Positions 4,898 through 9,476 of a stretch of DNA of 34,433 nt are shown piece after piece. Source of the stretch: Anaerolineae bacterium (GTDB lineage: Bacteria; Chloroflexota; Anaerolineae; B4-G1; SLSP01); NCBI GenBank assembly GCA_016926915.1, contig JAFGNR010000232.1:1-34433 (forward strand). Direction: 5' to 3'. The notes beneath the pieces were generated by a model. It had not been told where the DNA came from and ran no database searches. It saw nothing but the letters and a program-made list of their open reading frames with translations. The position numbers were made by a program, and so were the translations under genes. Each line of letters starts with the position of its first letter. Position 1 is the stretch's first letter.

Positions 4898-5431
4898 ATG
4901 AGAGAATTGGAGAACAAGCGCATTGCAGTGTTAGCCGAAGCGCTGTTTGAGGATCTGGAATTGTGGTACCCGTTGATCCGTATGCAAGAGGCCGGCGCTG
5001 ACGTCACCGTCGTTGGCACCGGCAGCGCGGAACGCTACCACGGAAAGCATGGCCTCACGGTCAAGGTGGACGTCGCAGCCTACGACGTAACGGCCACAGA
5101 TTTCGATGCGGTCATCGTACCTGGTGGATACGCCCCGGACAAGCTGCGTCGTTACCCAGCCGTGCTAGCGCTGGTCCGCGACGTTTTCGAGAATGATGGC
5201 GTCGTCGCCATGATCTGCCATGCGGGCTGGGTGGCCATATCCGCGGGCATCGTCGAGAACAAGGACGTAACGTCGGTTTCCGCCATCAAAGATGACCTGA
5301 TCAACGCCGGAGCCCAGTGGGCAGACCAGAGCGTGATCAAAGACGGCGGCCTGGTCAGTTCGCGAGGGCCAGATGATCTGCCGGTCTTCTGCGCCACGAT
5401 CATCGCCACGCTGGCGGGGCATGCGGACTGA
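4898..5431 (+). CDS. DJ-1/PfpI family protein
   Basis: A 177-residue single-domain protein of the PfpI/YhbO type. The nucleophile elbow is AMICHAGW (Cys107-His108), and a conserved Glu (about Glu18, in LFEDLELWYP) would lower the Cys pKa. Family members act as stress-induced glyoxalases/deglycases or small proteases, and specificity cannot be read from sequence. The start has a purine-rich AGGGGGGAAA upstream. It is the first gene of a plus-strand block leading into the superoxide reductase remnant and the encapsulin genes, which fits an oxidative or carbonyl stress role. Confidence 0.88.
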   Translation: MRELENKRIAVLAEALFEDLELWYPLIRMQEAGADVTVVGTGSAERYHGKHGLTVKVDVAAYDVTATDFDAVIVPGGYAPDKLRRYPAVLALVRDVFENDGVVAMICHAGWVAISAGIVENKDVTSVSAIKDDLINAGAQWADQSVIKDGGLVSSRGPDDLPVFCATIIATLAGHAD

Positions 5432-5560: not shown

Positions 5561-5707
5561 ATGACCGGAGATAAGATTCAACACGCTGATTGGAAAAGTG
5601 AAAAGCACGTGCCGGTTATCGAATGTGCCGACGCCGTCGCAAGCGGGGCGCTCTTTGAAGTGACCGTATCTTGCATACTGCAACATCCATGGGCTGTGGG
5701 AAAATAG
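5561..5707 (+). pseudogene. Truncated superoxide reductase (neelaredoxin/desulfoferrodoxin-type) remnant
   Basis: Too short for the ORF track (48 residues). After AAGGAG and ATG, it reads ADWKSEKHVPVIECADAVASGALFEVTVS. This closely resembles the N-terminus of class II superoxide reductases, including the EKHVPVIE segment with the first iron-ligand His. It then diverges (CILQHPWAVGK) and stops. The rest of the iron site, including the usual HPN.TEHHI motif and the later Cys/His ligands, is absent in all frames. It ends 33 nt before the encapsulated ferritin start. The intact 5' end and RBS suggest a recent internal or 3' deletion. Superoxide reductase would supply H2O2 handling beside an iron-storage shell, so the loss matters functionally. 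Confidence 0.7.
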
Positions 5708-5740
5708 CAAGGCCATCGCGGTTATATAAAGGAGGACACC

Positions 5741-6121
5741 ATGCCAGAATTCATCAACCCCTTTTCAGGCACCATACCAGAACGTAAGTTATCGCTGCAA
5801 GAGTTGTTACGGGCAATACGCCTGAATATCGCGGCCGAACACGAAGCGATTCATCTCTATATGGCCCATGCCGAGGCTACAGACCACCCGTTGGCGAAAA
5901 AAGTCCTTATCGACATTGCCAACGAAGAACGAGAACATATAGGCGAGTTCATGCAGCTCCTCCAAATCCTGACGGGTGATGAAGCCGAATGGCTCGAGAA
6001 CGGTCAACGGGAAGTCAGCGAGATGGCCGTGCAGATAGGGTCCCCTACGGATGAACAAGTGACCCCATCGGAAGAGACCCCGTCCCCCAATCCGCCGGTC
6101 ATCGGCTCGCTCAAGACGTAG
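5741..6121 (+). CDS. Encapsulated ferritin-like cargo protein (EncFtn)
   Basis: A 126-residue, two-helix half-ferritin. Helix 1 has Glu33/Glu35 (NIAAEHEAIHLY) and helix 2 has the E-x-x-H metal motif (NEEREHIGEF, Glu63 and His66). The spacing matches the Glu32/Glu62/His65 di-iron site known from Rhodospirillum rubrum EncFtn. Such proteins form a ring-shaped decamer whose ferroxidase sites lie at subunit interfaces. They need the encapsulin shell to store mineralised iron. A Pro/Thr/Glu-rich tether (about 101-118) leads to a C-terminal cargo-loading peptide. The RBS AAAGGAGG is strong. The shell gene begins 56 nt downstream. A plain rubrerythrin-like protein is the alternative, but the tail argues against it. 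Confidence 0.92.
   Translation: MPEFINPFSGTIPERKLSLQELLRAIRLNIAAEHEAIHLYMAHAEATDHPLAKKVLIDIANEEREHIGEFMQLLQILTGDEAEWLENGQREVSEMAVQIGSPTDEQVTPSEETPSPNPPVIGSLKT
6095..6118 (+). other. Cargo-loading peptide of the encapsulated ferritin
   Basis: The C-terminal residues PVIGSLKT resemble the (L/I)xVGSL(K/R) targeting peptides that dock cargo on the inner face of family 1 encapsulins. They are separated from the ferritin fold by a flexible Pro-rich linker, as expected. Confidence 0.75.
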
Positions 6122-6177
6122 CGTCAATACCACAACAACCTGATCACCGGACGATTTTACAACGTAGGAGGATAGCG

Positions 6178-6966
6178 ATGGCAAACCCATATCTGGCGCG
6201 TGAGGATGCGCCATTTCGAGACGAAATTTGGACGATTTTAGACAATGCAATGGTCACTGCAGCCAAACAACAATTGGCAGGACGACGCTTGCTCCCCCTT
6301 GAAGGCCCGTATGGCCTGGGGCTCAAGAGTATTCCTCTGCAGGATAGAGAGGCGGACGGGCTGATCACCAGCTCGACTCTGCCCGTGGCCCTTATCCGCG
6401 AGCCGTTCAAGATGGGGATGCGGGACCTTGCCAGCTACGAAGCGGGCGGGCCATTGCTCGATACCCGGCCCGTCGAGACTGCGGCGCGCGCCTGCGCCCG
6501 GCGAGAAGATCAAGTAATTTTCTATGGTGGGGCAGGCGTCCCAGGGCTCATGACCGTTGAAGGAACACAGGAGCTCCAGCTGCTAGATTGGGATGAAGTG
6601 GGTACGGCAGCTGGCGCCGTGATGCAAGCCGTCACGCTCCTGGATAAAGCGGGCTTCCATGGACCCTATTCGCTGGCCCTGGCCCCCGAACGCTACAACC
6701 TTCTCTTCCGCCGCTATCCCCAGGGGCAGCAAAGCGAGCTGGGTCACATCCAAACGATGGTGACGGATGGCATCTGCAAGGCCCCGATCCTGCAAACCGG
6801 GGGAATTCTGCTGGCATCCGGCAAGGACTACACCTCATTGGTGTTGGGACAAGACATGGCTCTGGGATTCATCGGGCCTGCAGGGGACAAGATCGAGTTC
6901 GCGATCTTCGAAAGCCTGGCGGTTCGCATCCGCTATCCCCAGGCCATGTGCAAGCTAAGACAATAA
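6178..6966 (+). CDS. Family 1 encapsulin shell protein
   Basis: A 262-residue HK97-fold protein of the linocin M18/encapsulin family, the usual length for small (T=1) shells. Recognisable segments are the N-terminal helix with the conserved DEIW, the GPYGLG segment, DLASYEAGGPLLDT before the spine helix, the A-domain GPYSLALAPERYNLL, and a C-terminal FAIFESLAVRIRYPQA. It assembles into a closed protein compartment and binds cargo through their C-terminal peptides. The ferritin cargo gene lies immediately upstream, so this is an iron-storage nanocompartment. The start has TAGGAGG seven bases upstream. No phage genes are nearby, which argues against a prophage capsid. Confidence 0.95.
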   Translation: MANPYLAREDAPFRDEIWTILDNAMVTAAKQQLAGRRLLPLEGPYGLGLKSIPLQDREADGLITSSTLPVALIREPFKMGMRDLASYEAGGPLLDTRPVETAARACARREDQVIFYGGAGVPGLMTVEGTQELQLLDWDEVGTAAGAVMQAVTLLDKAGFHGPYSLALAPERYNLLFRRYPQGQQSELGHIQTMVTDGICKAPILQTGGILLASGKDYTSLVLGQDMALGFIGPAGDKIEFAIFESLAVRIRYPQAMCKLRQ

Positions 6967-6999
6967 ACAGACCGCGACTATGTATAAGGAGGTATGCCC

Positions 7000-7242
7000 A
7001 TGCGTTACGGTGTAAAGACGAAAATGGACTCGGCTGCTGCAATCGAGAAAGCGATCGCGTATTTCGGAGAGGAAGGATTGGGTCTCGAGGTTGTCGAGAA
7101 GAGTGATTGCTGTGCGAAGTTCGAAGGAGGCGGCGGCTTTGTCAACGTCTTCTTGGACAATAAGGAAGGCAAGACAGAGGTCACGTTGGAAACTAGGGAG
7201 TGGGATTACCACGTGAAAAAGTTCATGCAGGAAATCGGGTAG
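7000..7242 (+). CDS. Conserved hypothetical protein in the encapsulin operon
   Basis: An 80-residue acidic protein, MRYGVKTKMDSAAAIEKAIAYFGEEGLG..., with a CC pair (residues 37-38), a Gly-rich FEGGGGFVNVFL strand and ending ETREWDYHVKKFMQEIG. A mixed alpha/beta fold is likely. There is no signal peptide, membrane segment or cargo peptide. I choose ATG 7000 rather than 6994 because AAGGAGG lies seven bases before it. It follows the encapsulin gene by 33 nt, so co-transcription is likely. The general look recalls small one-domain proteins found near heme or redox genes, but I cannot name the family. Confidence 0.75.
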   Translation: MRYGVKTKMDSAAAIEKAIAYFGEEGLGLEVVEKSDCCAKFEGGGGFVNVFLDNKEGKTEVTLETREWDYHVKKFMQEIG

Positions 7243-7278
7243 CCCTTGGGTCCCCAAGCCCTGCGAGAAAGGAGTCAC

Positions 7279-7689
7279 ATGATCGGCGTTTTGAGTGCAC
7301 AGTTGACGGAAATCGTCCTGGAGACGTTACCCGTCGAATTTTCCATTCTCGATGCCCAGGATAAGGTCTTGGCCTGGAACAAACACGAGACCCGTATCTT
7401 CAAACGCCCCAAGGGCGTTATCGGGCGCGACGTGCGCCAATGCCATCCCCAGAAAAGCCTCGACAAAGTCGAGCGCATTATCGAGGAGATGAAATCCGGG
7501 GAACGCGACAAAGCCCGGTTCTGGATCGAGATGATGTTGGAATCCGAAGAAACACCGCAGAAGATTCTCATCGAATACTATGCGCTGCGAGACGATGAAG
7601 GCGGCTACCTCGGTTGCCTCGAAGTCACGCAGAACATCACCGATCATCAAAATCTAGCCGGCGAGAAACGTCTATTAGGTGAAAAATAA
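7279..7689 (+). CDS. Single PAS-domain protein (DUF438-associated PAS type)
   Basis: A 136-residue protein that is essentially one PAS domain: VEFSILDAQDKVLAWNKHE, IGRDVRQCHPQKS, then YYALRDDEGGYLGCLEVTQNIT. The RxVxxCHPxKS and ILIEYYALRDE..YLG patterns match the PAS domain that accompanies DUF438/hemerythrin-like domains in other bacteria, but those partner domains are absent here. The Cys-His pair could bind a cofactor such as heme or metal, which is inference. The track start (TTG 7246) is upstream of the real RBS. GAAAGGAG precedes ATG 7279. It ends the encapsulin block, so it may sense redox, iron or oxygen for it, or pass a signal to an unknown partner. Confidence 0.85.
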   Translation: MIGVLSAQLTEIVLETLPVEFSILDAQDKVLAWNKHETRIFKRPKGVIGRDVRQCHPQKSLDKVERIIEEMKSGERDKARFWIEMMLESEETPQKILIEYYALRDDEGGYLGCLEVTQNITDHQNLAGEKRLLGEK

Positions 7690-8108: not shown

Positions 8109-9386
8109 CTACTGTTGGCCTGACTCGCCGGTGTCGGGATCCGGTACTTCGCCGGTCAGCGCCCTCAGATCCACTGCCGCATCTTGTAGTGTGCTTGCCA
8201 CCTCAACATACAGGGGACGATTTTGAACCAGCGTTTGCATAGGCGAGCGCTCCGAATCGGGACGCCCGGCAGCTAAGACCCCTGTAAGCCGCTCCTCCTC
8301 AAAGTAGTAGTAAGCAAACTCACCCGCAGCCAGCGTCCCCCGCAGCACCGTGCGATCCCAATTCGCAAGATTGCCCCACACCTCAAAGCTCAAATCAAAC
8401 AAATCCGAGAAGAAGTAAGGCAATGCACGGTAAGACGCCTCATCTCCCGCCATGTTGCGTCCGGCTCGCATCCCCTGGCGTCTTGCTACATCCCAATGCT
8501 CCACGCGTAATCGCTTCCTAAAGGTGGCATCGGACCAGGCAGCGATATCACCTGCGGCATAGATGTGGGGGGCGCTGGTCCGCAACCTCTCATCCACCAA
8601 GATAGCCTCATCTTCCTCGCGCACATCAAGACCGGCCTCACGGGCCAGGGCGGTATTGAGCGCAATTCCGACACCCATGACCACCAGATCTACGTTCAGG
8701 GTCTCGCCAGTGTCGAGCAAGGCGCGCGCGACACGTTCGTTGCCTTGCAGCTCCTTGCAAACGACGCCCGGCAAGACACACACGCCATGTTCTGAAAACT
8801 GCATTGCAAGGCCTTCACTCAGTTCCGGGGGCACGACCCGCTCCAACAATCGCGACTCCGGAAAGATTTCGGTAACCGCCACCCCCATTTGAGCTAACGA
8901 AGCCGCCACCTCCGCCCCGATAAAACTCCCCCCGAGAACCAAGGCGCGTTTTGCGCCTGTGGCTGCGCGCCGGATGGCACGGGCATCCTCAATCGTTCTG
9001 AGCGTGAAAACGCCCTCGAGATCGCCGCCGGGAAGCGGCAAGCGCAAAGCCCGCCCCCCCGTTGCCAGCAACAGCGTTTCATATCGCAAGCTGCGACCGT
9101 CATCCAAGGTCAACGTGCGAGCGGTCGTGTCCAGCGCAACGACTGCCACCCCCTGGATGAGAGCGATCTGGCGCTCCGCGTAATATTCCGCAGCTTGCAG
9201 ATAGACACGTTCCAATCCAGCTGCATCCTGTAAATACGCCTTGGACAAGGGCGGGCGTTGGTAAGGTCGATGCAGTTCCTGCGTCACCAGGGCGAGCGCA
9301 CCATTGTCATCGACTGCGCGGATGCCCTCACACGCCCTTCCGCCGGCAATCCCGCCACCGATAACAATATATCTATACGTTTTCAT
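8109..9386 (-). CDS. FAD/NAD(P)H-dependent reductase of the ferredoxin/rubredoxin reductase type
   Basis: A 425-residue two-dinucleotide-binding-domain flavoprotein. The N-terminal FAD motif is YIVIGGGIAGGRA, the second NAD(P)-binding motif is ALVLGGSFIGAEVAASL (about 145-160), and the C-terminal FAD contact is IYAAGDIAAW. A reductase C-domain follows. There is no Cys-xx-Cys disulfide, so it is not a thioredoxin reductase. It most likely passes electrons from NAD(P)H to a ferredoxin, rubredoxin or similar partner not in this window. I start at ATG 9386, which has AAAGGAG upstream, not at the track start. The in-frame small gene 7884-8105 follows after one stop codon. Confidence 0.9.
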   Translation of the reverse strand: MKTYRYIVIGGGIAGGRACEGIRAVDDNGALALVTQELHRPYQRPPLSKAYLQDAAGLERVYLQAAEYYAERQIALIQGVAVVALDTTARTLTLDDGRSLRYETLLLATGGRALRLPLPGGDLEGVFTLRTIEDARAIRRAATGAKRALVLGGSFIGAEVAASLAQMGVAVTEIFPESRLLERVVPPELSEGLAMQFSEHGVCVLPGVVCKELQGNERVARALLDTGETLNVDLVVMGVGIALNTALAREAGLDVREEDEAILVDERLRTSAPHIYAAGDIAAWSDATFRKRLRVEHWDVARRQGMRAGRNMAGDEASYRALPYFFSDLFDLSFEVWGNLANWDRTVLRGTLAAGEFAYYYFEEERLTGVLAAGRPDSERSPMQTLVQNRPLYVEVASTLQDAAVDLRALTGEVPDPDTGESGQQ

Positions 9387-9476
9387 TGGATACTCCTTTT
9401 GATACCAGGGATGAGCACTCCCCAACTACAGAACAACACTCCCCACTTTTTTGGGGACGACGGTGAATCTTTGAGA

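Follow-up and report, generated by a model that had tools for sequence, protein, structure and literature searches.

Ferritin-loaded encapsulins of two kinds come close to the operon described here. The first kind is represented by EncA-EncB/EncC of M. xanthus, the T. maritima encapsulin and EncFtn of R. rubrum, whose HK97-type family 1 shell is described in PMC8346489 and PMC11202242. In these Flp/EncFtn systems the cargo is a half-ferritin of about 100 aa with a Glu/Glu/His centre and a disordered tail that terminates in a GSL targeting peptide, and its gene lies directly upstream of the shell gene. Tail loading, ferroxidase chemistry and storage within the shell are characterised in these homologues (PMC11202242 and PMC8346489). 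The second kind carries a bacterioferritin-type cargo made of two four-helix bundles and has been reported in a few phyla, the Chloroflexi included (Andreas and Giessen, 2021; PMC8346489). Physiologically, encapsulated ferritins may serve either to store iron or to defend against oxidants.

The shell type, the half-ferritin with its Glu/Glu/His centre, the GSL tail and the gene order of the first kind recur in the window, by which we mean the whole stretch of 34,433 nt that was analysed. It corresponds to contig C139 of a metagenome-assembled genome in 460 contigs, with 88.7% completeness and 4.0% contamination. The operon and its immediate neighbours are as follows.

4898-5431, + strand: DJ-1/PfpI family protein (PF01965, E 2.1e-49)
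5561-5740, + strand: remnant of a superoxide reductase (SOR), a neelaredoxin-type desulfoferrodoxin (PF01880, E 5.2e-8; TIGR00332, E 2e-8; N-terminal part)
5741-6121, + strand: EncFtn-like half-ferritin cargo, 126 aa (NF058679, M. xanthus EncC match, alignment, model and Foldseek)
6095-6118, + strand: C-terminal targeting peptide PVIGSLKT (GSL invariant in homologues)
6178-6966, + strand: family 1 encapsulin shell, 262 aa (NF041155, PF04454, solved EncA and T. maritima 3dkt)
6994-7242, + strand: 82-aa protein of no known family, 27 nt downstream of the shell gene, with a ribosome-binding site of its own
7246-7689, + strand: PAS_10-domain protein, close behind the 82-aa gene

The cargo and shell genes are separated by 56 nt (6122-6177) and preceded by strong ribosome-binding sites, AAAGGAGG and GTAGGAGG. 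The original prediction had placed both frames and the spacing between them exactly to the base.

The cargo passes the EncB-family model NF058679 (120.5 bits, E 3.6e-35, cut-off 90) and fails TIGR04535 (86.3 bits, cut-off 125). The label "EncFtn-type" first given to it needs one correction, in that the model that fits is that of the EncB family. Among solved proteins, those closest to it in sequence are M. xanthus EncC (E 4.2e-15) and the EncFtn domain of P. furiosus, not R. rubrum EncFtn. The three ferroxidase residues Glu33, Glu63 and His66 are at the positions claimed for them and, together with E35 and Y40, are invariant in an alignment of nine homologues. The predicted structure (pLDDT 75) places helices at residues 19-46, 50-78 and 81-100, followed by a disordered tail; two of the modelled helices are long and antiparallel, as in half-ferritins, with the third in addition. 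A Foldseek search with this model returns P. furiosus EncFtn (5n5e) at the top, then EncC/EncB. The tail ends in PVIGSLKT, as predicted. Across the nine homologues the linker before the GSL varies in length and letters while the GSL itself is invariant, and close homologues end in TIGSLK, TIGSLR or TVGSLK. It had been raised beforehand, as a danger to the assignment, that the tail might differ from the cargo peptides carried by close homologues; this objection fails because the GSL is conserved within an otherwise variable linker. In a wider set, nearly all cargos adjoining a shell end in a [VI]GSL-type tail, and the close ones in [VI]GSL[KR]. Two exceptions, GAL in locus L024 and GDL in locus L047, are possibly natural variants of the targeting peptide.

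The shell scores 222.6 bits against the family 1 encapsulin model NF041155 (E 5.6e-66, cut-off 100) and 229.1 bits against PF04454 (E 6.9e-68, cut-off 24.3). Its best solved match is M. xanthus EncA (E 1.2e-36), T. maritima 3dkt also being matched (E 5.4e-22), and residues 5-260 align with both, which bears out its original assignment to family 1. The predicted structure of the shell is poor (pLDDT 47). Given the profile scores with NF058679, NF041155 and PF04454, a chance origin of the cargo and shell matches is excluded. Could the shell be a phage capsid or a prophage remnant, with the ferritin beside it incidental? One phage major head protein profile does match it weakly (E 3e-8), as is expected from shared HK97 ancestry, but this score is dwarfed by those of the encapsulin models and of EncA. 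Moreover, a tail-bearing cargo adjoins the shell in every close relative, and the surrounding genes, among the families scanned, belong to bacterial metabolism and stress. The score comparison and the conserved cargo linkage rule out a phage origin, whose probability we consider negligible, and the clustering with phage capsids that the original prediction had named as its second danger did not materialise. In trees containing the M. xanthus and T. maritima shells and no phage capsid, the window shell groups with the encapsulins. A tRNA scan of the whole window found none.

The window thus very probably encodes a canonical family 1 encapsulin loaded with a half-ferritin (probability about 0.85 for the identity and the mechanism of the compartment together). 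By analogy with the characterised homologues, the cargo would dock through its GSLK tail on the interior surface of the shell and would form ring-like oligomers; Fe(II) would be oxidised at the Glu33/Glu63/His66 sites of these, and the ferric mineral would be held by the shell.

The flanking genes differ in how far they follow the compartment into other genomes. Two relatives likewise have DJ-1 upstream of EncFtn (L008, 69% identity; L014, 67%), and the DJ-1/PfpI protein is possibly a stress partner of the compartment. In L014, the interval between DJ-1 and EncFtn (698-1593) holds a Dps-like protein, which scores under the cut-offs of the archaeal Dps models that it matches, and also, judged by eye, a 69-aa ferredoxin-like protein, possibly an iron-release partner. 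Downstream of the window shell, the 82-aa and PAS_10 genes are on the shell strand and perhaps share its transcript. The 82-aa protein has no Pfam or NCBIfam match and no tblastn match in the relatives. Both genes were rejected as conserved parts of the operon, since among relatives no homologue directly adjoins an encapsulin; a single PAS match (41%) lies in L012, about 3.6 kb upstream of SOR. A role in oxidative-stress defence had been proposed from the neighbouring redox genes. The direction of that proposal was right, but the genes were wrong: the reductase at 8112-9389 is ruled out as an operon partner by its position on the opposite strand, and the relevant gene is the overlooked SOR, whose remnant belongs to the cargo-shell operon and stands at its head.

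A further contig of this genome, C24, carries an intact SOR, an EncFtn-like cargo and a shell in that order. The cargo is 68% and the shell 64% identical to those of the window. The genome thereby holds two EncFtn-type copies, the window operon being the second. The C24 SOR (111.8 bits) aligns over its full length with 1do6 and 2amu and keeps H17, H45, H51, C115 and H118, the iron-ligand positions of P. furiosus SOR, so that all four His and the Cys are found in a single frame. If either contig were a binning contaminant, the two operons would not reside in one organism. The contamination estimate of 4% and the shell identity of only 64% would suit such an error, but tetranucleotide profiles unite both contigs with the bin: C139 and C24 match each other and the remaining bin contigs to the degree that those contigs match one another, whereas related outside genomes correlate clearly less well. 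This is consistent with C139 and C24 deriving from a single genome, and we regard contamination as quite improbable.

The window SOR retains approximately its first 36 and last 17 codons, joined by an out-of-frame deletion that appears, in an alignment with three intact homologues, as one clean block of precisely 221 bp. What stays open is a frame of 48 aa (5561-5706); the His ligands of IPHP and VEHH are lost, CNIH is out of frame, and just one of the five ligands (four His, one Cys), the first His, can still be read in frame. As seen in one metagenome assembly, this sequence would be either a pseudogene or the product of an assembly gap. In the latter case the real operon would be an intact SOR-EncFtn-shell, as the fragmentation of the assembly into 460 contigs, its incompleteness and contamination, and the single clean gap might suggest. 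However, the two SOR genes of the genome are only about 56% identical in this stretch, which makes a collapse of the two copies unlikely. The remnant is also nearer to the SORs of other EncFtn-type operons than to the C24 SOR (71% versus 56%), a comparison that is weak because it covers 34 residues. An artefact is on balance unlikely. With its SOR broken by the deletion, the window copy supplies only cargo and shell, and it is best read as relying now on the SOR of C24.

How general is the association between SOR and encapsulin? In a sample of 199 genomes of the class of the window (Anaerolineae/Chloroflexi), encapsulin is present in 36, SOR in 57 and both in 32, with 10.3 expected. The presence of SOR in 32 of 36 encapsulin genomes gives a Fisher probability of 3e-17 that ignores phylogeny, and a count per genus (21/25, p 4e-9) likewise ignores shared ancestry; the co-occurrence is partly due to shared anaerobic ancestry. 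Nine genomes of the sample encode SOR and shell on the same strand and no more than about 2.3 kb apart (G000, G008, G030, G053, G055, G104 and G120, with SOR downstream in G054 and G089), about 0.1 being expected by chance among the 32 genomes under a uniform model. A search among relatives added G010, G011, G014, G015, G018, G020, G021, G023 and G035. The linkage extends over at least seven families (f1, f2, f3, f9, f10, f11 and f26) and over two cargo-shell types, one with EncFtn and the other with a two-domain bacterioferritin-like cargo of about 315 aa, whose shells are only 30-38% identical to that of the window. The two-domain cargo has no match in the genome of the window. Outside the class, in a sample of the phylum, none of 12 encapsulin loci checked has SOR nearby. 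A separate locus outside the class (L119, G285:C288) contains an encapsulin shell match with two in-frame TGA codons, which reflect either a pseudogene, a sequencing error or recoding.

The SOR gene upstream, intact beside many related compartments, suggests that superoxide removal is coupled to iron storage. No targeting peptide was found on SOR in any locus examined, which rules it out as an encapsulated cargo, and it should therefore act outside the shell. From the gene linkage, the best reading is that cytosolic SOR and encapsulated ferritin constitute one module for the detoxification of superoxide, peroxide and iron. SOR, encoded at the head of the operon, would convert superoxide to hydrogen peroxide without making O2, while the encapsulated ferritin would remove Fe(II), possibly with the peroxide made by SOR as oxidant. 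Removal of Fe(II) by the caged ferritin would avert Fenton chemistry and the damage that it causes. Alternatively, SOR and encapsulin may adjoin merely as oxygen-stress genes, sharing a regulator or a stress region and no common chemistry. The crowding of these loci with other stress genes (DJ-1, rubrerythrin-like, peroxiredoxin) and the position of SOR away from encapsulin in 23 of the 32 co-occurring genomes are both consistent with this explanation, which is a serious one if somewhat short of an even chance. It accounts less readily for SOR being the partner retained with two different cargo-shell types, always on the shell strand and upstream in most families (downstream in G054 and G089).

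The C24 locus adds a historical dimension to the module of SOR and encapsulated ferritin. In two genomes of the family of C24 (G010 and G015) the gene order is a small gene, LysM, SOR, two-domain cargo, shell, rubrerythrin-like and formamidopyrimidine-DNA glycosylase. The flanks of C24 match this order, with a few extra genes, at 56-57% identity for LysM, 82% for SOR and 62-63% each for the rubrerythrin-like protein and the glycosylase; between the SOR and rubrerythrin-like neighbours, however, C24 carries an EncFtn-type cargo and shell (site of exchange: L007, G000:C24, 2887-9367). In the trees, the C24 SOR groups with the SORs of its own family and the C24 shell with EncFtn-type shells, each with support of 100/100. 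AU tests reject placing the shell among those of the family (p 3e-33) and the SOR among those of EncFtn-type operons (p 9e-12), which rules out a shared history of the C24 SOR and its cargo-shell cassette. The shared flanks, the conflicting trees and the AU tests together indicate, if the contig is correctly assembled, that the cassette was replaced between fixed neighbours, and the bacterioferritin-type cassette appears to be what was exchanged. Such a swap, in which cargo and shell are exchanged together while their chromosomal site stays the same, offers a clean example from nature of how modular encapsulins are. It is possible that, throughout the class, SOR and encapsulated ferritin act as one module in which the caged ferritin consumes the peroxide from SOR, and that unrelated encapsulins are swapped in behind a fixed SOR for the same task. 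We propose this only tentatively, with doubt outweighing belief. That SOR is linked to two cargo-shell types unrelated to each other favours oxidant defence as the role of these encapsulated ferritins.

The link between SOR and encapsulin was not found in the open-access literature searched, where the two were co-mentioned only in an unrelated review, and the same search returned no paper on encapsulin with desulfoferrodoxin, neelaredoxin or Anaerolineae. Superoxide is not mentioned in the text of the large encapsulin survey, whose supplementary operon figures may draw the link (PMC8346489).

The compartment itself is ordinary, of an encapsulin-ferritin kind already known; what adds moderate interest is its link to SOR and the exchange of the cassette. 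Compared with the Flp/EncFtn systems, the window shell, at 262 aa, falls short of M. xanthus EncA (287 aa), mainly through a gap at about residues 57-68. The cargo has Ala in place of Glu31 of R. rubrum EncFtn, a residue of the metal entry site, and the operon differs from the known ones in being headed by an SOR gene or its remnant. With the bacterioferritin-type encapsulins it shares the bacterial class, the family 1 shell, the C-terminal targeting tail and, in many of them, the upstream SOR; they differ in their two-domain cargo of about 315 aa and in shells of 30-38% identity to that of the window. Finally, the C24 SOR resembles the neelaredoxin-type SORs of P. furiosus (1do6) and T. maritima (2amu) over its full length and in its conserved iron ligands but, unlike these, is encoded together with an encapsulated ferritin, while its counterpart in the window is broken.
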